NCBI GenBank assembly: GCA_036403155.1
Contig: DASWRM010000069.1
Location: 1 to 64,000, forward strand
DNA: 64,000 nt
Reading direction: 5' to 3'
Source of the DNA: Gaiellales bacterium
GTDB taxonomy: Bacteria > Actinomycetota > Thermoleophilia > Gaiellales > JAICJC01
Shown here: piece by piece, positions 51,368-64,000 of the stretch
How the letters are laid out: each line of letters opens with the position of its first letter
Position numbering within the stretch: position 1 is the stretch's first letter
Translations under genes and position numbers: made by a program
The notes under the pieces: model-generated
Told to the model about the DNA's origin: nothing
Database searches by the model: none
Seen by the model: the letters and a program-made list of their open reading frames with translations, nothing else

Positions 51368-52756
51368 GTGCCCGACGAGGCCGGCTATCTGAGCGCGGCG
51401 GCGCTCGCCGACAGCTACCGCCGCCGCGAGCGCTCGGCGGTGGAGGTCACGCGGGAGGTGCTCGACCGGATCGACCGTCTCGACGGCGAAGCGAACGCCC
51501 TCGTCACCGTCACCCCAGAGCGGGCGCTGGCGGACGCGGAGCGGGCCGACCGCGCGCTGCGCGACGGCACCGCCGGGCCGCTCTGCGGGGTGCCCTACAC
51601 CCTCAAGGATCTCGTCCCGACCCGCGGGATACCGACGGGCTACGGCTCTCGCATCTGGCGCGATCCCTCGCCGGCGGTGGACGCGCCGGTGGTCGAGCGG
51701 ATGGCCGCGACGGGCGGCGTGCTGCTCGGGAAGACGACCGTGCCCGAGCACGGCTTCAAGGGCGACTCGGGGAATCCATTGAACGGCCCGTGCGCGAACC
51801 CGTGGGCAGCCGATCGCACTCCCGGGGGCTCATCCAGCGGCGCCGCGGTCGCGGCGGCGCTCGGCTATGGGCCGCTGCACCAGGGATCGGACGGGGCGGG
51901 ATCGATCCGCATCCCGGCCGCGTTCTGCGGCGTGGTCGGCCACAAGCCCACGTTCGGGCTGGTGGCCCACCCGCCCTCGAGCGGATTCGCGCTCTCGCAC
52001 CTCGGCCCGATCGCGCGCACGGTTGGTGACGTCGCGCTGATGCTCGACGCGATGTCCGGCTTCGACGCGCGTGACCGGCTCTCGGTGCCTTCGCCGGTCG
52101 GCTCCTTCGCCGCGGCGCTGTCCGAGCCGTTGCCGGCCCTGCGGATCGCGTTCAGCCCGGATTTCGGCTACGCCGCGGTCGAGCCCGGCGTGGCGGATCT
52201 GGTCGCCACGGCGGCGGCGTCGTTCGAGCAGCTCGGCCACCACGTCGAACAGGTGGATCTGGCGCTGGCGGATCCGTGGTGGGTCGAGCGGGAGCTGTGG
52301 CTCTCGATGTTCGCCGCGTCCTGCCCGGACGCGCTCGACCACCGCGATTCGGTGTCGCCGGGGCTCGTCCGCCTCGTCGAGCGGGCGGCCGAGCGCACGT
52401 CGGAGCAGGTGGGTGCGGCGCTGGACGCACGGGCGGGCGTGCTGCTCGAGATCGAGCGAGCCCTTGCCGGGTACGACCTGCTCCTGTGCCCGACGCTCCC
52501 CTGCACGGCGTTTGCGCTCGGCGACGACCAGCCTGCCGAGGTGGCCGGCAAGAGCTACGACGATCTCGGCTGGACGCAGTTCTGCTACCCGTTCAATCTG
52601 AGCGGGCAGCCGGCGGCGTCCGTGCCGTGCGGCTTCGCCGGGGGCCTGCCGGTGGGGCTGCAGATCGTCGGGCGCCGCCTCGATGACGCCACGGTGCTGC
52701 GTGCCGCGGCCGCGTACGAGACCGCGCATCCGTTCGGCCTTCCGCCCGCGCGGTAG
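51368..52756 (+). CDS. Amidase-signature family hydrolase
   Basis: A 462-residue enzyme with the Ser-Ser-Lys triad: Lys in PYTLKDLVPTRG, cis-Ser in GGSSSGAAVAAALG and nucleophile Ser in GSDGAGSIRIPAAFCG. The family hydrolyses amides, including amino-acid amides and carbamoyl groups. The start GTG at 51368 gives the typical N-terminal helix. It is divergent from the aminotransferase with only 27 bases between starts, so promoters must overlap. Confidence 0.93.
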   Translation: MPDEAGYLSAAALADSYRRRERSAVEVTREVLDRIDRLDGEANALVTVTPERALADAERADRALRDGTAGPLCGVPYTLKDLVPTRGIPTGYGSRIWRDPSPAVDAPVVERMAATGGVLLGKTTVPEHGFKGDSGNPLNGPCANPWAADRTPGGSSSGAAVAAALGYGPLHQGSDGAGSIRIPAAFCGVVGHKPTFGLVAHPPSSGFALSHLGPIARTVGDVALMLDAMSGFDARDRLSVPSPVGSFAAALSEPLPALRIAFSPDFGYAAVEPGVADLVATAAASFEQLGHHVEQVDLALADPWWVERELWLSMFAASCPDALDHRDSVSPGLVRLVERAAERTSEQVGAALDARAGVLLEIERALAGYDLLLCPTLPCTAFALGDDQPAEVAGKSYDDLGWTQFCYPFNLSGQPAASVPCGFAGGLPVGLQIVGRRLDDATVLRAAAAYETAHPFGLPPAR

Positions 52757-52790
52757 CCGTAGCCGTCTCGCTCCGGTAAGGTCTGCGCGC

Positions 52791-53213
52791 ATGAGTTACG
52801 ACGCTCTGCTCTTCCTCCACGTGCTGGCGGCGTTCACGATGGTGACCGCCGTGGGGATGTTCCTCGCGATTGCGCTCGCACTGCGAAGCGGGCGGCACGC
52901 TCCCACGGCGCTGGTGCTCGCCCCGCTGGCGGGCTGGTTGTGGGCCGTGGGCGGGCTCGCCGCGATCGTCTTCGGCGTCTGGCTGGCGGTGCACGTGAGC
53001 CAGTACTCGCTGACGGACGGCTGGATCATCGCCGCGTTCGTGCTGTGGCTGGTCGGGTCGGCGATCGGCGGCCGGATCGGCGCGGATTACCGCCGCGGTG
53101 GCGGCGACGCGGGACCGCGCGTCGATTCCACCGCGCTCGTCCTCAACCTGCTGCTCGTGGTCGCCGTGATCGCGATCCTGATCGACATGATCTACAAGCC
53201 GGGTGCGTCGTGA
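52791..53213 (+). CDS. Small integral membrane protein (4 TM)
   Basis: A 140-residue protein with four helices; the first contains LLFLHVLAAFTMVTAVG, the His-containing start seen in DUF2269-like and other haem- or copper-associated small membrane proteins. Function is unknown. It ends in a GTGA overlap with a second, similar membrane protein, so they may form a heterodimer. Confidence 0.7.
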   Translation: MSYDALLFLHVLAAFTMVTAVGMFLAIALALRSGRHAPTALVLAPLAGWLWAVGGLAAIVFGVWLAVHVSQYSLTDGWIIAAFVLWLVGSAIGGRIGADYRRGGGDAGPRVDSTALVLNLLLVVAVIAILIDMIYKPGAS

Positions 53214-53671
53214 TCCTGATGATCCGCCCGGATGACTGGAACCTTCCGGTGCTCCTGCACGTCGCGGGCGCCATGGCCCTGGTCGCGTCCGTCACCGTGG
53301 CCGCGGTCGCACTGATCCAGGGCTGGCGGACGCCCGACCCTGCGGTGGCCTCCACGCTGCAGCGCTTCGGCGCGCGCACGCTGCTCTGGGCGGCGCTGCC
53401 GTCGTTCGTGGTCATGCGTGCCGCCGGGCAGTGGGCAGTCTCCCGCGAGGGACTCGAGAACTCAAACGACGCCTGGATCGGGATCGGCTTCACGGTCGGC
53501 GACTTCGGCGGAATCCTGCTCCTGATCTCGATCATCGTCGCGAACATCGGCGTCCGCCGCTCGCGCGACGGCGGCCTGGGCAGGCTGTCGAAGGTCGCGG
53601 CGGGCATCTCGGTGCTGCTGATCGTCGCCTACGTCGTGACCATCTGGGCGATGACGACCAAGCCCTCCTAG
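53210..53671 (+). CDS. Small integral membrane protein, partner of the preceding gene
   Basis: A 153-residue protein with about four helices. LPVLLHVAGAMALVASVTVA mirrors the His-bearing first helix of the upstream protein, which suggests the two are distant paralogs acting together. GTG start in a GTGA overlap. No catalytic motif is seen and the family is not assigned. Confidence 0.7.
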   Translation: MILMIRPDDWNLPVLLHVAGAMALVASVTVAAVALIQGWRTPDPAVASTLQRFGARTLLWAALPSFVVMRAAGQWAVSREGLENSNDAWIGIGFTVGDFGGILLLISIIVANIGVRRSRDGGLGRLSKVAAGISVLLIVAYVVTIWAMTTKPS

Positions 53672-53714
53672 CTCCGCAGGCGTGCGCGAGGGCCGGCCGG
53701 GGTACGGTCGCGGC

Positions 53715-53906
53715 ATGACGGACCACGACACGACGCCAGACGACGCACCGGGCACGGAGCTGCCGGAGCCGCTCGAGGAAGGCGACCCCGAGGAGCGCGA
53801 CCGCCGCCCCGGCGAGCGGGAGAAGCCGGGCCTCGGCGACCTGAACGAGGCGATCGCACCCGACGGGCTGTCCGGCCCCGCGCGTCCTGACGACGATCGC
53901 TCCTAG
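53715..53906 (+). CDS. Small acidic disordered protein
   Basis: A 63-residue ORF, very rich in Asp, Glu, Pro and Gly, with no hydrophobic core; it is predicted to be disordered by composition. The ATG at 53715 lacks a strong ribosome site. It could be a real small protein or chance; its regular codon use and position after the membrane pair give it modest support. Confidence 0.45.
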   Translation: MTDHDTTPDDAPGTELPEPLEEGDPEERDRRPGEREKPGLGDLNEAIAPDGLSGPARPDDDRS

Positions 53907-53951
53907 GCGGCGCACGGCGTCCAGCCGTCGAGCCGGGCGTACTGACTCCCG

Positions 53952-54146
53952 CTAGGAGCCGGAGCTGAGCGAGTCGCCGTCCTCGGTGGTCTCCGCGTAG
54001 CGCGTGATCGCGGCGACCAGGCCGGCGAGGAGCGCCGCCAGCGCGAGCGGCGCAAGGAGGTAGCCGATCACCCCTCCCCAGCCGTTCAGCACGCTGAGCG
54101 CCTCGAAGAAGACCCAGAACAGCACGAAGAGGAGACGATGGATCAT
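53952..54146 (-). CDS. Small membrane protein (2 TM)
   Basis: A 64-residue protein: two hydrophobic helices (MIHRLLFVLFWVFFEALSVL, then about residues 28-48) and an acidic, Ser-rich C-terminus. No family is recognised. The ATG at 54146 is used. The 153 bases upstream, to the VOC gene, contain nothing I can name. Confidence 0.55.
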   Translation of the reverse strand: MIHRLLFVLFWVFFEALSVLNGWGGVIGYLLAPLALAALLAGLVAAITRYAETTEDGDSLSSGS

Positions 54147-54299
54147 CGTGCCGCTCCATGCCCGCCGGGCGGATGCCGAAACAGGGTGAGCCCGGGCGAG
54201 CGGCTGTTCATGCGGCGGGGAGCGGCCTGCACGGCCTGCGCCTGGAGCGCGTGGTGACCGCGCCGGTCGCCACCCACCGCGAGTTCGCGCGCTAGCCGG

Positions 54300-54665
54300 T
54301 CACCCCGGCATCTGCGCCGAGGGGTCCGTCTGCCAGATGCCGAACTCGTTGCCGTGCGGGTCGGTGCACGTGGCGAACCAGCCCATGTTCGGCACCGGCA
54401 TCGCGTCGCTGGCCTCGCCACCCAGCTCTCGCACCCTGGCGGCGCCGGCGTTGATGTCGTCGACGTCGAAGTACGGGCGGGTGCCGCGCTTGCTCGGCTC
54501 CATGTTGGTGATTGCGCCGCCCTGGCTCTCGGAGATCCTCGTCATGTGGTACTCGGACGGGCCGGGGAAGCTCTCGAACTGCCATCCGAACAGCGAGCCC
54601 CAGAACTCGCGGCTGCGCGACGTGTCGTCCGCCGGGATCTCCAGGTGCACGATCTGACCTGCCAT
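54300..54665 (-). CDS. VOC/glyoxalase-family protein
   Basis: A 121-residue single VOC domain: IVHLEIPADDTSRSREFWGSLFGW at the start, and TRPYFDVDDINAGAARVRELGG and TDPHGNEFGIWQ in the second half. Metal ligands of catalytic glyoxalases are partly present (HLEI, FGIW). The ATG at 54665 has GGAGG 5 bases upstream. Such proteins act as lyases, dioxygenases or resistance binders; here the role is open. Confidence 0.87.
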   Translation of the reverse strand: MAGQIVHLEIPADDTSRSREFWGSLFGWQFESFPGPSEYHMTRISESQGGAITNMEPSKRGTRPYFDVDDINAGAARVRELGGEASDAMPVPNMGWFATCTDPHGNEFGIWQTDPSAQMPG

Positions 54666-54738
54666 GCGTCCTCCTCGACTGGTGTTGGCGGAACCCTCCG
54701 CCGTGGTCAGTCTATGAGACGTCCGGCGCGGCCCGAAC

Positions 54739-56727
54739 TCATCGGTGGCCTTCGCCGGCGCCCGTGCATGGGGGGTGCCCGTGCCTCGATCGCTCCCACC
54801 CACGATGCCGGTGGCGCCCGCGATCGTGATGATCGTGATGATGGTGGCCGGCGTCACCGTCATCCCCTCCGCCTGTCCATCCGCCCCCACCAGTGCCTCC
54901 GGCGTCGACAGGCGTGTTGACCACGTAGGTCACCGCGGCCGTGGCGCTGTTCCCGGCGGCGTCCGCAGCGCTGACGGTGAAGGTGAACGCGCCGGGCGTG
55001 CCGGTGTCCACGGCGGCCCCGTTCGAGACCGGCCCGGTGCACGTCGCCACGCCGGATCCTCCGTCGGCGCACCCGTATGCCGCGTTCAGCGGGCTCCCGG
55101 CATCCACGGCTGCACCGTCGGCGGGCAGCGAAATCGTGATCGCCGGCGCCTTGCGGTCGACGCGAATGCCGGTGAAGGGCCCGACGTCGGTGCAGTTGCC
55201 GGCCACGTCGCAGACGTGGGCCGATCCGGTCGAGGCGTCGGCCGTCTCCGACCCATCGGCGATGTCGGTGGACAGCGCGAACGCGGCCTGTCCCGCGTCG
55301 GCAAGGCCACTGTCGGGATCGCTCGCGCTGCACTGGAGCGTCACGTTGCCGGCGTGCCAGCTGCCGTCGTCCTGTGTGCACTGCACCTGCGGCGGGCTGA
55401 CGTCGACAGGGACATCGAACGGCGACCCGAATCTGATCACGTCCCAGCCCTGGCCGAACCCTCGCGCGGCGTCCCCCGGGACGATGTCGCCCGCGGTGGT
55501 GGTCAGGCCGACGTAGCGCCCGTCGCCCGAGATGGATGCGGACTGGCTTGCCTGAGTGGCCTGTGACGACGTCGAGGCCAGGCGCGTGATCCCGGCCGCC
55601 CGGTCGCGGACGAAGATGTCCTGATCGCCGCCCGTGTCGCCCGGATCGAGATTCGTCGCGGACGACTGGAACGCCACGTAACGGCCGTTGTCGGACACCG
55701 ACGCCACGGACGAGTTGCCGTTGGCTCCCGTGCCGCCGCTGGACAGGCTCACGCGCTCGGTGGTCTCGCTCGCCAGGTCGCGGACGTACACGTCGGTCCC
55801 GCCCGTGTCCCCCGGAACCAGCGCTGCTCCGGTGTCGAAGGCGACGACCCGGCCGTTGCCCGAGAGCCCGCCCGGCTGCAGGCTCGAGGCCGACGGCGAC
55901 TCGGCACCGGCCGGCGTGACGCTCGCGCGCACGGTGGAACCGGTGCTGCGGTCATGGACGAAGACGTCGGCGGCGAGGTTGCCGTCGCCCGCGACCAGGT
56001 TTGGCGCCGTCGACGTGAACGCGACGCGGCGGCCGTCCGCCGAGAGGGCGGATGCGTCCGAGGACCCGGCGGCCGCCTGGGCTCCGTCGGACGCGACGCT
56101 GACTCGTTCCACGCCGCCGGCCCGCGACCACACGAACACGTCGCGCACCCGGTTGGTGTCGCCGTCCACGAGGTTCGATGCGCTGGACGAGAAGCTCACG
56201 GCTCCGCCGTCCGCGCTGATGCCACTGGGCGCCTCGCCACTGGCGGCGTTGCCCTGCACGCCGGCGGCCGACACGCTGAGCCGGGTCGTGGTGCCCGCGG
56301 CGAGGTCGCGCAGGAAGACGTCGCTGACGCCGTTGGTGTCACCGTCGACCAGGTTCGCCGCCTGGGAGGTGAACACCACGAAGCGGCCGTCGGCGCTGAT
56401 GCGGGCGTTCGACGACGCTCCGTTCGCCTCGCCGTTCGCGCCGAGCGAGACCCGCGTCGTGACGCCGCTCTCCGTGTCCCGCACGAACACGTCGCGCGTG
56501 CCGTTCGAGTCGCCGGGGACGAGCGCGCTCGAGCCCGACACGAATGCGACCAGCCTGCCGTCGCCTGACACCGATATCGCGTCCTGCGCCGCAGTCTCGT
56601 TCGCGGGGGCGGCGGCCATCGTCACCGTGACGAGGGCCGGCGACACCGCCGCTGCCGCACTGGTCGCCGTGGCGGCGATCCCCGCGATGACGCACCCACA
56701 CACCAGTCGACCCCACGCTCTGCCCAC
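54739..56727 (-). CDS. Secreted TolB/WD40-like beta-propeller protein with His-rich tail
   Basis: A 662-residue exported protein, GTG start with AAGGGGG upstream. The signal peptide ends near residue 26 (SAAAA). Residues about 45-430 hold repeated propeller blades, each with the pattern ISADGRFVVFTS...LVDGDTNGVSDVFLRD, reminiscent of calcium-binding TolB-like blades. Then come Ig-like segments (APAITISLPADGAAVD) and a Gly-rich linker. The C-terminus holds about nine His within 25 residues (GHHHHDHHDRGRHRHRG), a possible metal-binding tail. No enzyme motif is seen; a surface or adhesive role is possible. Confidence 0.8.
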   Translation of the reverse strand: MGRAWGRLVCGCVIAGIAATATSAAAAVSPALVTVTMAAAPANETAAQDAISVSGDGRLVAFVSGSSALVPGDSNGTRDVFVRDTESGVTTRVSLGANGEANGASSNARISADGRFVVFTSQAANLVDGDTNGVSDVFLRDLAAGTTTRLSVSAAGVQGNAASGEAPSGISADGGAVSFSSSASNLVDGDTNRVRDVFVWSRAGGVERVSVASDGAQAAAGSSDASALSADGRRVAFTSTAPNLVAGDGNLAADVFVHDRSTGSTVRASVTPAGAESPSASSLQPGGLSGNGRVVAFDTGAALVPGDTGGTDVYVRDLASETTERVSLSSGGTGANGNSSVASVSDNGRYVAFQSSATNLDPGDTGGDQDIFVRDRAAGITRLASTSSQATQASQSASISGDGRYVGLTTTAGDIVPGDAARGFGQGWDVIRFGSPFDVPVDVSPPQVQCTQDDGSWHAGNVTLQCSASDPDSGLADAGQAAFALSTDIADGSETADASTGSAHVCDVAGNCTDVGPFTGIRVDRKAPAITISLPADGAAVDAGSPLNAAYGCADGGSGVATCTGPVSNGAAVDTGTPGAFTFTVSAADAAGNSATAAVTYVVNTPVDAGGTGGGGWTGGGDDGDAGHHHHDHHDRGRHRHRGWERSRHGHPPCTGAGEGHR

Positions 56728-56902
56728 GAGAGACCCCCTTGACGGTATCCGGCGCCTTGCGCCGGTGGGTGCCGTGCGGAAGCCTGCACCCGTCTCCCAG
56801 CGTGGCGCCCGCCGGGCGTCCCCGCCACTCCCCGGCCGGGGGTGCTGCGATCACCCGAAGGCGGCTGCTCCTCGTCCGCCCAACCCGAAATGAACTATCT
56901 CC

Positions 56903-56938
56903 TTGACAACTAATCTTGTCGGTGAAATGATGACCCGC
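56903..56938 (+). promoter_or_regulatory. Promoter and operator of the ArsR-SRPBCC operon
   Basis: TTGACA (56903-56908) is a perfect -35 box. An AATGAT-like -10 box at 56926-56931 follows with a 17-base spacer. GACAA-N6-TTGTC (56905-56920) is an inverted repeat over the -35 and spacer, well placed for autorepression by the downstream regulator. Confidence 0.65.
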
Positions 56939-57544
56939 ATGATCGACGTCGCGGTCATCGACGATCCCGCCGCCGCAGAGGTGAGCCTCGACCCCGTGCG
57001 TGGCCGCCTGCTCGCCGAGCTGGCGGAACCCGGGTCGGCGAGCTCGCTGTCCGGCCGCGTCGGCCTGACACGGCAGAAGGTGAACTACCACCTGCGCGCC
57101 CTTGAACGGCACGGTCTGGTCGAGCTCGTCGAGGAGCGGCGGAAGGGCAACTGCACCGAGCGGGTGCTCCAGGCGACCGCCCGCTCGTACGTGATCACGC
57201 CGGCCGCGCTTCCGGCCGTGGCGCCCGACCCCTCGCGCTCGCCGGATCAGCTGTCCGCTCGCTGGCTGCTCGCCGTGGCCGCGCGACTCGTGCGCGACAT
57301 CGGTGAACTGATCGCCGGGGCGGCCTCCGCACGGCAGCAGCTGGCGACGTTTGCGATCGACGGCGAGATCCGGTTCGCCACCGCGGCCGACCGGGCCGCG
57401 TTCGCAGAGGAGCTCGGGGCGGCGGTGGCCGAGCTGGCCGGCAGGTATCACGACGAAACGGTTCGGGGAGGCCGGCGCCACAGGTTCGTGGTCGCGCTGC
57501 ACCCGACCCTCAAGGGCACACACCACAAGGAGGTCGAGTCATGA
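56939..57544 (+). CDS. ArsR-like winged-helix regulator of an SRPBCC operon
   Basis: A 201-residue regulator. The winged helix lies at about 15-75 (VRGRLLAELAEPGSASSLSG, then VGLTRQKVNYHLRALERHGL) with a long C-terminal ligand or dimer domain. I chose the ATG at 56939 because the promoter -10 box overlaps the earlier ATG pair at 56927/56930; the mRNA would then be nearly leaderless. It overlaps the SRPBCC gene (ATGA), a regular partner of this type of regulator. Confidence 0.85.
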   Translation: MIDVAVIDDPAAAEVSLDPVRGRLLAELAEPGSASSLSGRVGLTRQKVNYHLRALERHGLVELVEERRKGNCTERVLQATARSYVITPAALPAVAPDPSRSPDQLSARWLLAVAARLVRDIGELIAGAASARQQLATFAIDGEIRFATAADRAAFAEELGAAVAELAGRYHDETVRGGRRHRFVVALHPTLKGTHHKEVES

Positions 57545-58263
57545 GCCGCGAGTTCGAGATCCGCCGAGAGGTCGAGCTGCCGGGCACCCCCGAGCAGGTG
57601 TTCGCCGCTGTCGCGACAGGCAACGGAACGGCCGGGTGGATGTTTCCCACGGGCGAGGGAGCGCCGTCGCAGGTCGGCGAGGAGTTCGCGGGACACCGCG
57701 TGACCGTGCTCGATCCCCCGAACCACTTTGCCGTGCGCGCGGAGGGCGAGGACGGATCGGTCAACTCGCTCGACTACCGCATCGAGCGGCGCGGCAGCGG
57801 CGCCCTCCTCCGCTACGTCCACAGCGGCGTCATCACCGACGACTGGGACACGCAGTACGACGGCGCCGACCGCCATACCGATTTCTACCTGCACTCGCTG
57901 GGCGAGTACCTGGCGCACTTCGCCGGCCGGGACGTCACCTATGTCGGCGCCGACGGCCCCAAGGAGGCGCTGGGCCCCGAGGCGTTCGCCGCGGTGCGCG
58001 CGGCGCTCGGAGTGCGCGAGGACGGGGCCGTGGGCGATCGCGTGGATGTCGAGCTGCCGGGGATCGGCCGGCTGCGCGGCGAGGTCGACTACCTTGACGA
58101 CATGTTCATCGGGGTGCGCGCCGACGATGCGCTGTACCGGTTCTATGGGCGCGGCTCGATGGGCATGCCGGTGTTCGCCGGCCACCACCTCTTCGCCCCC
58201 GGCGTCGACGGCCCCGCGGCGCAGGCGGCGTGGGAAGCCTGGCTGGCCGGCGTCATCGCGTGA
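57541..58263 (+). CDS. SRPBCC (AHSA1-like) ligand-binding protein
   Basis: A 240-residue protein with a START/SRPBCC helix-grip domain (about 5-135: FEIRREVELPGTPEQVFAAVATGNGTAGWMFP) and a C-terminal extension with a second, smaller domain. It likely binds a hydrophobic ligand; with the upstream ArsR-like regulator it forms a common actinobacterial pair of unsettled role. Its ATG overlaps the regulator stop; it ends in a GTGA overlap. Confidence 0.88.
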   Translation: MSREFEIRREVELPGTPEQVFAAVATGNGTAGWMFPTGEGAPSQVGEEFAGHRVTVLDPPNHFAVRAEGEDGSVNSLDYRIERRGSGALLRYVHSGVITDDWDTQYDGADRHTDFYLHSLGEYLAHFAGRDVTYVGADGPKEALGPEAFAAVRAALGVREDGAVGDRVDVELPGIGRLRGEVDYLDDMFIGVRADDALYRFYGRGSMGMPVFAGHHLFAPGVDGPAAQAAWEAWLAGVIA

Positions 58264-58892
58264 CGCTGCAGAACCGGGTGACGCCGCTCGGCGAGCTGAT
58301 CGCAGATCCGGCGCGCGGCCTGGTGTACGGCAATCGCGGCTGCCTGCACGACGCCGGCGGCCGCGTGCGCCGCCACCATGCAACCCGCCGCTGGATCGCG
58401 TGCCGCCTCGAGTTCCGAGGCTGGCGGCGCGGCCCGATGATGCAGCCCGGGCGGTTCACCGAGCTGTTCTTCCTGGACGATGCGACGGCGCTCGCCGCCG
58501 GCCACCGGCCGTGCGCGCTCTGCAGGCGTGAGGACTACCGCTCGCTGGCCGCGCGGCTCTCGCAGCTGCACGGGGGATCCACCGGCGCCGACGCGATCGA
58601 CGAGCGCCTGCACGGCGAACGCCTCGACGGCGACCGCAGGCGGGTGCACATCAGGCGGGGAGCCGGGCTGCCGGACGGATGCTGCGTGCTCGTGCGCGGC
58701 CGGCCATGGATGGTCGCCGGCGGGGCGCTGCACCGGTGGACGCCCGCTGGGTACGCCGAGCGGGCGCCGCTCGGCCGCGCGCGCCGCGACGTGCTGACGC
58801 CTCCGTCGCTGCTGGCGCTGCTCGGCACGGGCTGGCGGCCGCTCGTGCCGCTGCTGCACCCGAGCGCCGGTGTGGCACCCTTCGGTGCATGA
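58260..58892 (+). CDS. Conserved protein of unknown function with CALC motif
   Basis: A 210-residue basic, Arg-rich soluble protein starting with GTG in a GTGA overlap. Notable segments are GLVYGNRGCLHD, RRWIACRLEFRGW, MQPGRFTELFFLDDATALAAGHRPCALCRREDY and RPWMVAGGALHRWTPAGY. The CxxC in PCALC plus other Cys/His could bind zinc. I have the impression of a conserved bacterial family without known function. It overlaps the next gene by ATGA. Confidence 0.75.
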   Translation: MTLQNRVTPLGELIADPARGLVYGNRGCLHDAGGRVRRHHATRRWIACRLEFRGWRRGPMMQPGRFTELFFLDDATALAAGHRPCALCRREDYRSLAARLSQLHGGSTGADAIDERLHGERLDGDRRRVHIRRGAGLPDGCCVLVRGRPWMVAGGALHRWTPAGYAERAPLGRARRDVLTPPSLLALLGTGWRPLVPLLHPSAGVAPFGA

Positions 58893-59425
58893 GCCGTCTG
58901 GTGGCGCTGCTTCGCGGGGTCAACCTCGGCGCCGCGCGGCGCCTGCCGATGGCCGACCTGCGCGCGTCGATGGAGCGGCTGGGATACGACGACGTGCACA
59001 CGGTGCTCCAGAGCGGAAACGTGGTCTACACCGGTGGCGACAGCGCCGACCGCTCCGAGCAGCGGATCCGCGCGCAGCTGCGCGACGACACGGGCATGGA
59101 CGTCCCGGTCATGGTCCGCACAGCGCGGCAGATGGAGGCCGTCGTGCGGCGCAACCCGCTGAGCGACCACGCAAGCGATCCCAAGCGCCACCACGTCGTC
59201 TTCCTGGCGGGCCGGCCGGCAGCGGCCCGCGGCGCATCGCTCGACCCGGCGGCGTTCGAGCCTGAGCGCTTCGCGCTGCACGGACGGGAGCTCTACGTGT
59301 GGTGGCCGGACGGCGCGCACAGGGCACGGCTGACGCTGCCCGCGATCGAGCGCCGTCTCGGCGTCAGCGGCACCGCTCGCAACTGGAACACCGTCGAGAA
59401 GCTCGCCGAGCTGGCCGCCGGTTGA
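58889..59425 (+). CDS. DUF1697-family protein
   Basis: A 178-residue soluble protein. The start RLVALLRGVNLGAARRLPMADLR and LGYDDVHTVLQSGNVVYTG are the DUF1697 signature; the C-terminus has TARNWNTVEKLAELA, also conserved. Function is unknown. It is the last gene of the regulator-SRPBCC-CALC-DUF1697 operon. Confidence 0.9.
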   Translation: MSRLVALLRGVNLGAARRLPMADLRASMERLGYDDVHTVLQSGNVVYTGGDSADRSEQRIRAQLRDDTGMDVPVMVRTARQMEAVVRRNPLSDHASDPKRHHVVFLAGRPAAARGASLDPAAFEPERFALHGRELYVWWPDGAHRARLTLPAIERRLGVSGTARNWNTVEKLAELAAG

Positions 59426-59481
59426 CGGGCTGCAGCCGGTTCGAATAGGATCGCAACATCTGCTACGAGGGGGTGGTTGCG

Positions 59482-60357
59482 ATGAGCCGGTGGGAACTGC
59501 TGAACGAGGCCGCCGTCCGCGTCGCGCGGGCTCCGGAATCCCGGATGTCGCGTGGACAGGCCCTGCGGCGAGGAGCCGCGGCGACGGGTGCGATCGCCGG
59601 GCTGGGACTGCTGGACGCGGCGCCGGCGCTGGCATGGTGGGGGAGCCAGCCGCGCCCGATCCCCGGCGGGGTCGACGAGACCTTCACGCCGGTCGCCAAG
59701 GATCCGTTCCTGCACTTCTCCTACCCGGCGTTCGGGTACGAGGCGATCACGATCACCGACTTCCACGGCGTCATGGCTGCGGGTGAGACGCAGGGCGCCG
59801 TGCATGGCAGCGACGGCAAGGCCTACAGCTTCGACGCCGACCTGCGGTTCATGCGCGGCACGTACGTCGGCATGGACGGCCGGTCGCGGCAGGGCGCATT
59901 CGCGTTCATATGAATCGACATCTTCACGGGCGCCGTCGGCGACCTTTCGGATCAGATCCACGACTTCGAGCCGGGCATCAGGCGGTCCGGGCTGTTCTGG
60001 ACCGTGCCGGTCCCGGACAGGTCGATCGACGCCGATCTGCTGCAGCACCGCGCTCGGTTCCACATCCGGCGGCGCGCGATGCCGGACTTCCACGACTTCT
60101 TCAACGCGATCTCCCCGACCGCGTCCCCGGTTCCCGGCCACGTCACCTTCGACGCCCACTGGACGGCGAGCGGGCCGCGGCAGCGGATACGCGATCCGGC
60201 GTTCCGATTCACGGGCCGCTTCATGCCTGCCGACATGCGCCTCGCGTTCAGTGTCAGCGATGACAACGGCGGGGTCGTCTATCATTCGGTTCGGGACGAG
60301 CAGGTCACAGTGGGCGGCGTGATCGGTCACGAGCGGAACGGGCGATTCTTCCGCTGA
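59482..60357 (+). pseudogene. Secreted protein gene interrupted by an in-frame TGA
   Basis: The frame opens at ATG 59482 (GAGGGGG upstream) and encodes an N-terminal tail, a Tat-like or Sec-type signal (ALRRGAAATGAIAGLGLLD, then APALA), and protein-like sequence up to TGA at 59911-59913. The same frame then continues without a break for another 147 codons to TGA at 60357 (IDIFTGAVGDLSDQIHDFEP at once after the stop). TGG (Trp) to TGA is a one-base change. It is either a recent nonsense mutation, a read-through site or a sequence error. The family is not recognised. Confidence 0.7.
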
Positions 60358-60365
60358 GCGCCGGT

Positions 60366-60381
60366 CCCGGCCTGGGCCGGG
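60366..60381 (+). terminator. Hairpin before the rpmG operon
   Basis: CCCGGC, loop CTGG, GCCGGG; a 6-bp GC stem 8 bases after the stop of the interrupted gene. It probably ends that transcript. Confidence 0.45.
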
Positions 60382-60434
60382 CGCGTGAGGCCCTGTGATA
60401 CCGTCCATTCGCTCAACCGACGAGAGGGTTTCGC

Positions 60435-60596
60435 GTGGCCACAGGCGTCCGAGTGCTGGTGACGCTCGCTTGCCAGGAGTGCAAGCGCCGCAACTATCAG
60501 ACGAACAAATCGAAGCGCAACTCGCCAGACCGGATCGAGTTTTCCAAGTACTGCCGGTGGTGCAGCAAGCACACGCCGCACAAGGAGACGCGCTAG
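60435..60596 (+). CDS. rpmG: Ribosomal protein bL33
   Basis: A 53-residue protein from GTG 60435. The sequence reads [20 protein letters not shown] at the start and has [14 protein letters not shown] at the end, so both CxxC pairs of the zinc-binding form are present. It is a component of the large ribosomal subunit. It is the first gene of the block leading to secE and nusG, with a 4-base gap to secE. Confidence 0.95.
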
Positions 60597-60600
60597 CACG

Positions 60601-60909
60601 ATGGCACGGCGTAGCCGTCAGCCGCAGCCTGCCAACAGGCGCAGCGTCACGGCCCCGCTGGCCGGCAAGCCAAAGAGCCAGTCGGGCGGCGAGCCGGTCC
60701 AGCGCAAGCGCGGGATGCTCTCGGGCGTCCGCAACTTCACGGGCGAGGTGCGCGGCGAACTGGCGAAGGTGGACTTCCCGAACCGCCAGCAGACCTGGCA
60801 GTCGACATCGGTCGTGATCGGTGCCTGCATCATCGTCGGCCTCTACCTGTACGGCCTCGACCAGGCGTTCGCGCGCCTCGTCGACCATCTCGTCGAACTG
60901 CAGAGATAA
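60601..60909 (+). CDS. secE: Protein translocase subunit SecE
   Basis: A 102-residue protein: a long basic, disordered N-terminus (about 1-45) typical of actinobacteria, then the conserved amphipathic helix FTGEVRGELAKVDFPNRQQTWQ and one transmembrane helix (about 72-90). It clamps SecY in the secretion channel. The order rpmG-secE-nusG is the usual one. Confidence 0.97.
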   Translation: MARRSRQPQPANRRSVTAPLAGKPKSQSGGEPVQRKRGMLSGVRNFTGEVRGELAKVDFPNRQQTWQSTSVVIGACIIVGLYLYGLDQAFARLVDHLVELQR

Positions 60910-60919
60910 CGGAGCGCGC

Positions 60920-61444
60920 ATGTTTCGCTGGTACGTCATCAACACCTATTCCGGCCATGAGAACAAGGTCAAGGCCAACCTGGAGCACCGGGTCAAGTCG
61001 ATGAACCAGGAGATGACGGTGCGGCGTGTCGTCGTTCCCACCGAGTCCGTGGTCGAGACCAAGGACGGGCAGAAGGTGCAGACCGAGCGCAGGCTCTGGC
61101 CCGGCTACGTGCTGGTCAACATGGACCTGACCGACGAGGCGTGGACGCTGGTGAAGAACACCCCTGGCGTCACCGGCTTCGTGGGCGCCCAGAACAAGCC
61201 CGTGCCGCTCTCACAGCCCGAGGTCGACCGGATGCTGCACACGGCACAGGCGGCCCCGGCGCCGAAGCAGAAGGCCGAGTTCTCGCTCGGCGAGAGCGTC
61301 AAGGTGATCTCCGGCCCGCTGTCGGACTTCGACGGCGAGATCGCCGAGATCAACGAGGACCAGGGCAAGCTGAAGGTGCTCGTGTCGATCTTCGAGCGTC
61401 AGGTGCCGGTCGAGCTGGAGTTCGACAAGGTAAAAAAGATCTAG
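60920..61444 (+). CDS. nusG: Transcription termination/antitermination factor NusG
   Basis: A 174-residue protein. The NGN domain starts FRWYVINTYSGHENKVKANL and includes RRLWPGYVLVNMDLTDEAW; the C-terminal KOW domain is FSLGESVKVISGPLSDFDGE. GGAG precedes the ATG by 6 bases. It binds RNA polymerase, and links it to Rho or ribosomes. A hairpin and a 104-base gap separate it from rplK. Confidence 0.98.
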   Translation: MFRWYVINTYSGHENKVKANLEHRVKSMNQEMTVRRVVVPTESVVETKDGQKVQTERRLWPGYVLVNMDLTDEAWTLVKNTPGVTGFVGAQNKPVPLSQPEVDRMLHTAQAAPAPKQKAEFSLGESVKVISGPLSDFDGEIAEINEDQGKLKVLVSIFERQVPVELEFDKVKKI

Positions 61445-61451
61445 AACGTGA

Positions 61452-61474
61452 GCTCCGCCCGACAGCGGCGGAGC
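61452..61474 (+). terminator. Hairpin between nusG and rplK
   Basis: GCTCCGCC and GGCGGAGC form a perfect 8-bp stem with a 7-base loop, 7 bases after the nusG stop. It is probably an attenuator or processing site, because the genes beyond it are normally transcribed together. A second weaker GC hairpin (GAGC...GCTC) follows around 61501-61529. Confidence 0.5.
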
Positions 61475-61548
61475 GAACCTGACCAGCAGGTGCAATCGTG
61501 GGAGCCGGGGCCACCCCCCCCGGCGCTCGAACCACTAGGAGGTAGCCG

Positions 61549-61977
61549 GTGGCCAAGAAGGTCATCAAAGTCATCAAGCTCCAGATCCCGGCCGGGCAGG
61601 CGAACCCGGCCCCGCCGGTCGGCCCGGCGCTCGGCCAGCACGGCGTCAACATCATGGACTTCTGCAAGGCGTTCAACGCCGAGACGCAGGGGCCGAACGC
61701 CGGTCAGATCACGCCGGTCGAGATCAGCGTGTTCGAGGACCGCTCGTTCACGTTCATCACCAAGACGCCGCCCGCAGCCGTGCTGATCAAGGAGGCCCTG
61801 AACCTCCAGTCCGGCTCCGGCGAGCCGAACCGCACGAAGGTCGGCACCATCTCTCGCGACCAGCTCCGCGCCATCGCCGAGCGCAAGATGCCCGACCTGA
61901 ACGCGAACGACGTCGAGGCGGCGATGAACATCGTGGCCGGCACGGCACGGTCGATGGGCGTGGAGGTGGGTCGCTGA
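61549..61977 (+). CDS. rplK: Ribosomal protein uL11
   Basis: A 142-residue protein from GTG 61549 with a perfect AGGAGGT ribosome site. [34 protein letters not shown] is unmistakable. It binds 23S rRNA at the GTPase centre. It shares one base with the start of rplA (TGATG). Confidence 0.98.
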
Positions 61978-62699
61978 TGGCCGGCAAGCGGTATTCCAGC
62001 GCGCGGCAGGCGATCGACCGGGAGCGGCTCTACTCGCCGCTCGACGCCGTCCGCACCCTGAAGTCGCTCGACACGGCGAAGTTCGACGAGACGGTCGAGG
62101 TGCACATGCGCCTCGGGGTGAACGTCCGGCACGCCGACCAGCAGCTCCGCGGGACGCTGTTTCTTCCCCACGGGCTTGGCAAGTCGGTGACCGTCGCGGT
62201 GTTCGCACAGGGTGAGAAGGCGAAGGAGGCGGAGGACGCCGGTGCCGACGTCGTCGGCGGCGACGACCTGGCCGCTCGCATCAGCGAGGGCTGGACGGAG
62301 TTCGATGTCGCGATCGCGACGCCCGACATGATGGGCACGGTCGGCCGCCTGGGTCGCATCCTCGGCCCTCAGGGAAAGATGCCGAGCCCCAAGGCCGGCA
62401 CGATCACGTTCGACATCGGCCGTGCCGTGGGCGACGTCAAGTCGGGCAAGATCGAGTACCGGACGGATCGCACCGGGATCGTGCACGTCGCGGTCGGCAA
62501 GAAGTCGTTCGACGAGCGGGCGCTGGTCGAGAACTACCAGGCCGTCCTCGAGGAGATCCTTCGCGCCAAGCCGTCGGCGGCGAAGGGCCGCTACCTGCGA
62601 TCCGTGACGATCGCCTCGACGATGAGCCCGGGCCTGAAGCTCGACACGACGAAGGTCCGCGACCTGATGGAGGAGCCGGCCGCCGCCGCGGCGGTCTAA
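61977..62699 (+). CDS. rplA: Ribosomal protein uL1
   Basis: A 240-residue protein. KRYSSARQAIDRERLYSPLDA, ATPDMMGTVGRLGRILGPQGKMPSPKAGT and the C-terminal TIASTMSPGLKLDT are the L1 signatures. It forms the mobile stalk near the E site and usually represses its own mRNA. It is translationally coupled to rplK. Confidence 0.98.
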   Translation: MAGKRYSSARQAIDRERLYSPLDAVRTLKSLDTAKFDETVEVHMRLGVNVRHADQQLRGTLFLPHGLGKSVTVAVFAQGEKAKEAEDAGADVVGGDDLAARISEGWTEFDVAIATPDMMGTVGRLGRILGPQGKMPSPKAGTITFDIGRAVGDVKSGKIEYRTDRTGIVHVAVGKKSFDERALVENYQAVLEEILRAKPSAAKGRYLRSVTIASTMSPGLKLDTTKVRDLMEEPAAAAAV

Positions 62700-62853
62700 C
62701 ATCCGCATACCAACCGCGCGTACCGCGCCACAGACCGTCGGGGCCTTCGGGCTCAAACCACCACCCGACCGAGGCCGGCCAGTCTTGGAGCTCTCGCTCC
62801 GCCTGCGCCCGCCATCCGAGCGGACGCCGAGCGAAGCGAGAGGAGGTGAGAAG
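62700..62853 (+). ncRNA. Ribosomal L10 leader (autoregulatory mRNA structure)
   Basis: The 154 bases between rplA and rplJ. GTCGGG (62737-62742) pairs with CCCGAC (62764-62769). Inside is GCC-TTCG-GGC (62743-62752), a UUCG-capped stem, followed by unpaired CAAACCACCA, fitting the L10(L12)4 binding fold. Further on CTCTCGCT (62791-62798) pairs with AGCGAGAG (62835-62842), ending at the rplJ ribosome site GGAGGT, so structure could control access to it. The assignment rests on position and these pairings. Confidence 0.7.
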
Positions 62854-63387
62854 GTGAACCGAGACGAGAAGCGCGAAGTGATCGAGCGCCTGGTGACCCA
62901 GATCCGTGAGTCGAAGGCGCTGATCGTGACCGACTACCGCGGCCTGACCGTGACCCAGACGGCCGAGATCCGCAACGCCCTGCGCGAGGCGGGGGCGTCG
63001 TTCCACGTGGCCAAGAACACGCTGGCCAAGCTCGCGGCCGAGCAGGCCGAACGGCCGACGCTGCTCGAGTTCCTGGAGGGACCGACGGCGATCGCGTTCA
63101 TCGAGGACGACCCCGCGTCGGCGGCGAAGAAGCTGTCCGAGGTGGCCCGTTCCACCCGCATCCTGGCGGTGAAGGGCGGCGTGATGAACGGCCACACGCT
63201 GACCGCCGACCAGATCCGCGACCTGGGCGACCTGCCCCCGCGGCAGGTGCTGCTCTCGCAGGTGGTCGGAGCGCTGGCCGCGTCCATGCAGGCCACGGTC
63301 GGAACCCTGAACGCGCCGCTGCGAGACATCGCGGCGGTGCTCGATGCGTACATAACGAAACGTCAAGAGGCAGAGGCTGCTGCCTAG
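62854..63387 (+). CDS. rplJ: Ribosomal protein uL10
   Basis: A 177-residue protein; the GTG at 62854 lies 6 bases after GGAGGT, and the protein starts NRDEKREVIERLVTQIRESK. TDYRGLTVTQTAEIRNALREAG and FHVAKNTLAKLA are typical. The C-terminal helix binds L7/L12 dimers. An in-frame upstream GTG/TTG region is the leader, not protein. Confidence 0.97.
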   Translation: MNRDEKREVIERLVTQIRESKALIVTDYRGLTVTQTAEIRNALREAGASFHVAKNTLAKLAAEQAERPTLLEFLEGPTAIAFIEDDPASAAKKLSEVARSTRILAVKGGVMNGHTLTADQIRDLGDLPPRQVLLSQVVGALAASMQATVGTLNAPLRDIAAVLDAYITKRQEAEAAA

Positions 63388-63405
63388 AAGGAAGGTGTCG
63401 ACACG

Positions 63406-63792
63406 ATGGCTGTCGAGGACATTGTCAAGGAACTGAACAAGCTCTCCGTGCTCGAGTTGGTCGAGCTGAAGAAGGCGCTCGAGGAGGAGTGGGACGTGAC
63501 CGCCGCGGCGGCCGCCCCCATGATGGTCGCGGCGGGTGCTCCCGCTGCCGGTGGCGGCGAGGGCGGCGGCGAGGAGGAGAAGGACTCCTTCGACGTCGTG
63601 CTGACCGGTGCGGGCGACAAGAAGATCCAGGTGATCAAGGTCATCCGCGAGCTCACCGGCCTCGGTCTCAAGGAGGCCAAGGCGGTGGCGGACGAGGCGC
63701 CCAAGCCCGTCAAGGAGGGCGCCGCGAAGGACGAGGCCGAGCAGATGAAGGCAAAGCTCGAGGAGGCCGGCGCCACTGTCGAGCTCAAGTAG
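63406..63792 (+). CDS. rplL: Ribosomal protein bL12 (L7/L12)
   Basis: A 128-residue protein: N-terminal dimer domain [20 protein letters not shown], a Gly/Ala/Glu hinge (about 38-58), and the C-terminal factor-binding domain ending [19 protein letters not shown]. It recruits translation factors. It follows rplJ by 18 bases. Confidence 0.98.
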
Positions 63793-63814
63793 AACGCTGA
63801 GGGCTCCCGCGGTT

Positions 63815-63852
63815 GAGCGCCCCGGGCCGGTTCGCGCCGGCGCCGGGCGCTC
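63815..63852 (+). terminator. Hairpin after rplL
   Basis: GAGCGCCC (63815-63822) and GGGCGCTC (63845-63852) form a perfect 8-bp base, and the interior GCCGG/CCGGC adds a second stem. No T run. By position it may be the attenuator that lowers transcription beyond rplL. Confidence 0.55.
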
Positions 63853-63904
63853 TGCCGCGCCTTCTCCCGGCGTCGACACGGCTGCCGCCGGTAACATCTC
63901 CCCT

Positions 63905-64000
63905 GTGGAAAAGGCATCCTGCATCCGCCCGTTCGCGTCTCTGCGCGACAAGCCGAAGCCGACGGCCGAGCAGCACACCCAGGCCCTGTTCGCCGACCCG
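63905..64000 (+). CDS. Possible start of a gene cut by the window edge
   Basis: From GTG 63905 the frame is open to the end: 32 codons starting VEKASCIRPFASLRDKPKPT. There is no clear ribosome site. By gene order rpoB would be expected next, but these residues do not resemble the usual RpoB start, so the product is unassigned; it may also be non-coding. Confidence 0.3.
   Translation, partial: MEKASCIRPFASLRDKPKPTAEQHTQALFADP

Follow-up and report, generated by a model that had tools for sequence, protein, structure and literature searches.

A conserved in-frame TGA in a Gaiellales bacterium marks a probable exported selenoprotein of an apparently undescribed family

The DNA analysed here (the window) is a stretch of 64,000 nucleotides of contig DASWRM010000069.1 from a Gaiellales bacterium (GenBank assembly GCA_036403155.1). 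Ahead of genes whose translations read as rpmG-secE-nusG, an order already given in an earlier reading made from the sequence alone, its forward strand carries a candidate selenoprotein gene (59482..60357) that runs in frame through a TGA codon at 59911..59913. From the ATG at 59482, 143 codons lead to this internal TGA and 147 more to the final TGA stop at 60355..60357; homologs read through the same internal TGA. The product would thus have 291 residues, with position 144 at the internal TGA. The sequence-only reading had the downstream count and the total right but counted 144 codons before the TGA. An in-frame GTG at 59473 is also possible as start. The first part of the protein is an N-terminal export signal region (59482..59631), the end of which is an estimate; residues 1–48 have low model confidence. 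G+C content at codon positions 1/2/3 is 0.69/0.56/0.89 upstream of the internal TGA and 0.66/0.48/0.88 downstream. As these values are similar on both sides, coding character is kept past the TGA, and the homologs described below likewise bear out that the downstream half is protein-like. On the minus strand, an open frame of 550 codons (window 59293-60945) runs antisense to the gene, and antisense frames cluster in 19 of 30 family loci; they are probably a by-product of high third-position G+C. An Rfam scan of window positions 52000-64000 returned a single weak miRNA match (E 0.55) and nothing else.

When the read-through protein, with X at the TGA, was used as query, matches were found in four of 61 near genomes, its own included. 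The three non-self homologs come from other genera, are 35–43% identical and each contain exactly one internal stop, a TGA in the same column, where FAFI*IDIF of the window corresponds to FAFI*IDLY, FAFV*LDIY and FAFV*LDVF. With the frame open past this shared TGA in three other genomes, the read-through is more than chance. Profile searches, run on partly overlapping genome sets, detected the family in seven of 399 genomes of the class and in four of 396 of the phylum, where a further match was confined to the signal region. For the phylum to which a Chloroflexi-titled member belongs, 22 of 400 genomes matched over the site and 16 more gave nothing but end pieces; for that of an Acidobacteria-titled member, the counts were seven of 396 and five more. 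Scanning contigs for two patterns located downstream of the site yielded 29 loci, all with TGA, five of them on contigs already found. Pooling gave 87 HMM matches, 80 rows covering the site and 58 distinct sequences, with 26–49% identity between homologs and the window protein. At the site, every one of the 58 distinct members reads TGA, with no case of Trp, Cys or another sense codon. The searches were not biased towards TGA, since stops were read through when genomes were searched and the patterns of the contig scan lie outside the site.

These counts bear directly on the idea that a single base change, by recent inactivation or by a sequencing or assembly error, interrupted a gene with Trp or another residue at this position. 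Seen on its own, the frame in the window is indeed open but for a single TGA, and broken copies of the family do exist (frame-shifted L026, L038/L091, L082 and L105; remnants L083 and L107). However, a TGA shared by all 58 distinct members contradicts both recent inactivation and the proposal that TGG, found in none of them, would be the intact codon. In addition, all ten chosen pairs have dN below dS before as well as after the TGA, with one upstream dS saturated. For example, the dN and dS values were 0.07/0.94 before and 0.08/1.01 after the TGA for L030/L034, and 0.45/0.97 and 0.44/0.94 for the window and L023, indicating that the downstream half is translated and selected. On the conserved TGA and the dN and dS values we rejected a pseudogene, a sequencing error or restoration to Trp as the general explanation, and we leave these explanations only a negligible probability.

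The 29 titled records among the family members are all metagenome-assembled genomes, with titles naming Actinobacteria, Chloroflexi (some Ktedonobacteria), Acidobacteria, Dormiibacterota, Thermomicrobiales, Fimbriimonadaceae and Proteobacteria, and many of their names indicate soil or groundwater. In the family tree, the larger phylum groups do not form single branches. Five genomes (G401, G413, G944, G973 and G225) hold more than one copy or piece. The second copy in G225 (L026/L027, G225:C117) has a frameshift just before the TGA, which is either an assembly error or a real pseudogene, and the isolated C-terminal remnants L083 (G1034:C114) and L107 (G1363:C465) look like decayed copies. A plasmid search gave no match, and among viral contigs 18 stretches fit a pattern, none of which encodes a relative. 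Across 30 loci, the large clusters of neighbouring genes consist of the family gene itself or of frames overlapping it. None of the other clusters among the 14 listed is a general conserved neighbour; one is common to three loci (L031, L040 and L048) and one to two (L030 and L047).

Bacterial SECIS elements are modelled as hairpins with a loop of 3–9 nt, a G in the first two loop positions and a distance of 16–37 nt after the UGA (PMC13188914, a 2026 review, cited throughout from part of its text). We scored hairpins with GG or GU at the start of the loop and the loop 16–25 nt after the UGA, allowing a bulge, in the 58 genes. Hairpins of −5 kcal/mol or below were present in 52 of 58 genes, compared with a mean of 10.9 and a maximum of 18 in 500 synonymous recodings; at −7.5 kcal/mol or below, the count was 41, compared with a mean of 4.3 and a maximum of 10. 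Mean hairpin energy was −9.1, versus −2.2 (s.d. 0.36) in synonymous recodings that keep the protein. A stricter, bulge-free test identified hairpins in 24 of 31 genes (mean 2.4, maximum 8 in 300 synonymous sets), and elsewhere in these 31 genes 4.6% of 6663 positions had such a hairpin. Six of the 58 genes have weak or absent hairpins, L046 and L056 without any score and L035, L040, L048 and L063 with weak ones. Hairpins at the modelled distance and with the modelled G recur across the family, the window's own (59928..59945; 7 bp, loop GUC, starting 15 nt after the UGA) needing one bulge. With the bulge it reaches −8.2 kcal/mol; without it, −3.7, a value equalled by 18.7% of synonymous variants and hence not special. 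RNAalifold found no consensus structure in the unadjusted hairpin alignment because loop registers differ between members, and the hairpin evidence is accordingly the synonymous-codon control, not a covariation count.

All four of selA, selB, selC and selD, which the sequence-only reading had proposed looking for, are present in the window's genome. The tRNA-Sec gene (C74:10133-10224) scores 63.8 bits and has the anticodon TCA according to ARAGORN, selB (C74:94415-95476) adjoins selA (C74:95503-96564), and selD lies at C66:54306-55229. A second selA (G000:C61, C61:608-1882) has a selB piece beside it at the contig end (G000:C61:1-1882, L099); it is either a paralogue or bin contamination, for which the figure is 3.1%. 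Other genes interrupted by TGA, which the same reading had suggested seeking, were found as well. In two formate-dehydrogenase-like genes, which both fall short of the curated TIGR01591 cut-off, the Sec motif contains an in-frame TGA (NRT-U-HAPSV and ARI-U-HSSTV). With the Sec machinery and these two genes, UGA recoding is probably in use in this genome.

Among 30 family-holding genomes, SelB exceeded its cut-off in 27 (missing in three), SelA in 25 (missing in five) and SelD in 26. tRNA-Sec reached at least 63 bits in 22 and passed the looser Rfam cut-off in 27; matches near that cut-off (47–54 bits) are distrusted, five of 14 control genomes also passing it. Each of the 30 has either SelB over the cut-off or a tRNA-Sec of at least 63 bits; the best tRNA-Sec of one family holder, G053, does not exceed 51.1 bits. 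SelB occurs in 36 of 61 genomes of the order, so its co-occurrence with the family would by itself argue only weakly for selenocysteine. In genome G003, tRNA-Sec (L004:1350-1443, plus strand) faces the homolog (minus strand, stop at L004:1495-1497) at a distance of 51 bp. SelD itself carries an in-frame TGA in 16 of the 26 family-holding genomes with SelD over the cut-off, so Sec-containing SelD appears to be common among family holders.

Given a conserved TGA followed by sequence with dN below dS, the recurrence of SECIS-like hairpins throughout the family and a genome that carries the Sec machinery, the gene very probably encodes a full-length exported selenoprotein, with Sec inserted at residue 144 by SelB and the hairpin. 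Of the three options raised for the interrupted frame, namely recent inactivation, programmed read-through and recoding, recoding is supported. Given the SECIS-like hairpins after the UGA and the Sec machinery of the genome, unspecific read-through at 59911–59913 is less likely than selenocysteine insertion. That the case for Sec is built from sequence, and that tRNA-Cys species reading UGA are known in other bacteria, counts for read-through with a non-Sec residue (Cys or Trp via a UGA-reading tRNA) or for a conserved, regulated leak giving short and long forms. The hairpins, the tRNA-Sec with anticodon TCA, selA, selB and selD, and the other selenoprotein-type genes with TGA in the same genome make this improbable. 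Genome-wide reassignment of UGA to a sense codon would likewise put a TGA inside a conserved gene. However, TGA ends 21 of 35 likely window genes, as selected by a crude composition filter, and this gene too; we rejected reassignment on these grounds and give it next to no credence. In selenocysteine insertion, SelB with Sec-tRNA(Sec) would bind the hairpin starting 15 nt after the UGA and selenocysteine would enter at residue 144, where translation would end if charged tRNA-Sec were lacking. The product would then be exported, probably after folding, as most relatives have a twin-arginine signal.

Among 31 members searched against Pfam and NCBIfam at E ≤0.1, the twin-arginine signal model PF10518 matched 12 and TIGR01409 matched 13. 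A signal peptide had been proposed for the window protein; an export signal is plausible from these relatives, but the window protein itself was matched by neither model. The first signal arginine is present in 46 of 46 rows and the second in 41 of 46. The window protein has RG instead of RR, which makes its route of export less certain. Across the 52 aligned rows, D120, F140, Sec144 and W173 are invariant, and D146, H160, D161, G170 and D202 are conserved in 48–51. Counting rows that have a letter at the position concerned, N286 occurs in 47 of 48 and G287 in all 47, and Q158 is also conserved. The family has no conserved Cys, and 34 of the 52 aligned proteins have none outside the Sec position.

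AlphaFold2 gave confident models (mean pLDDT 82.6 for the window protein and 88.3 for L031) with a mature domain that is nearly all-beta by DSSP in both, and no thioredoxin-like alpha/beta fold. The mature part is predicted to fold as a beta-barrel with Sec on the third long strand and with D120, D146, H160, D161 and W173 as conserved residues. In VIA-align, OmpX ranked best (Z 10.0, 117 residues, rmsd 3.5), ahead of CghA (Z 8.7, 133 residues, rmsd 5.7), 25-phosphosteroid lyase (25-PSL; Z 7.2, 138 residues, rmsd 3.3) and AttH (Z 7.0, 138 residues, rmsd 3.7); values of this size are usual among barrels and speak for arrangement, not kinship or function. Whole-domain comparison with lipocalin/AttH-type proteins (Z 7.0–8.7, rmsd 3.3–5.7) was likewise tied with that to unrelated outer-membrane barrels. 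In the models, the general arrangement is like that of lipocalin-like and outer-membrane up-and-down barrels, and Foldseek returned no PDB match for the family at E ≤0.001. By sequence, 14 PDB entries matched, all with E 0.12 or worse and several of them to twin-arginine-type leaders. In BFVD, the only matches of the window model below E 0.001 were two Tupanvirus orphans (A0A6N1NGJ3 and A0A6N1P1C3; E 5.0e-4 and 8.9e-4), with low TM-scores of 0.24–0.33.

In the Pfam and NCBIfam search of the 31 members, the mature part matched no model, the only hits being the twin-arginine signal models and single-member matches at chance level. The 2026 review tabulates 119 prokaryotic selenoprotein families and subfamilies (PMC13188914), none of which fitted when compared at the level of table entries, not sequence by sequence. 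Open-licence literature, at the level of titles and abstract openings, contained no description of the family, which is therefore apparently undescribed. With selenoproteins that use bacterial SECIS elements it shares the in-frame UGA, a G-rich, small-loop hairpin after it, and SelA, SelB, SelD and tRNA-Sec in the genome. It differs from them in its predicted beta-barrel, which is not thioredoxin-like, and in having no Cys homolog among the 58 members. A thioredoxin-like fold characterizes the majority of selenoproteins studied so far, according to the portion of PMC13188914 used here. An exported beta-barrel with a single Sec, unaccompanied by a resolving Cys, would be unlike that majority.

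Homologs with Cys in place of Sec usually help to support a selenoprotein, as a criterion of prediction methods although not of the definition. None was seen among the 58 distinct members in the genomes searched; this search covered the sampled genomes above the search thresholds, and a distant Cys form could fall outside it. The available text of the deep-Sep paper (PMC12013277) states that Cys homologs now seem to exist for all known selenoproteins and that the method may miss families lacking them. A case for comparison is glycine reductase selenoprotein A (GrdA), long thought to lack Cys homologs (PMC1794560, in part), for which such homologs have since been reported (PMC12013277, in part). 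GrdA has a CxxU motif (PMC13188914, in part), whereas the present family has no conserved Cys. We lean, with some reserve, towards an obligate selenocysteine family, that is, a widespread exported beta-barrel that never has Cys at the key position, is often Cys-free and uses chemistry that needs selenium itself. If so, it would contradict the published statement on Cys-containing homologs, reveal a blind spot of discovery methods built on Cys/Sec pairs, and make it testable whether some chemistry strictly requires selenium. Gene callers split such genes at the TGA, which would have kept a whole family of environmental bacteria out of Pfam and NCBIfam.

The function is open to two readings that we consider equally likely, each of them tentative. 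As a guess, the protein may be an extracytoplasmic enzyme that uses a lone selenolate to reduce or rearrange peroxides or other electrophiles. Glutathione peroxidase uses a Sec-Gln-Trp-Asn set, and Q158, W173 and N286 beside the Sec of the family recall it, by analogy and from conservation in sequence alone; the two show no sequence match, and the family model is all-beta. Alternatively, within the selenoprotein reading, Sec could be a ligand for a metal, heme or another cofactor instead of a redox or nucleophilic residue. Such a role finds no solved-metalloprotein relative by sequence and no general conserved neighbour gene, yet it would suit the missing conserved Cys partner, with D120, D146, H160 and D161 as possible co-ligands. 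Proteins that take up cofactors before export often have twin-arginine signals, as most family members do. In the portion of PMC13188914 used here, ∼70% of predicted Sec-ligand interactions involve metals.
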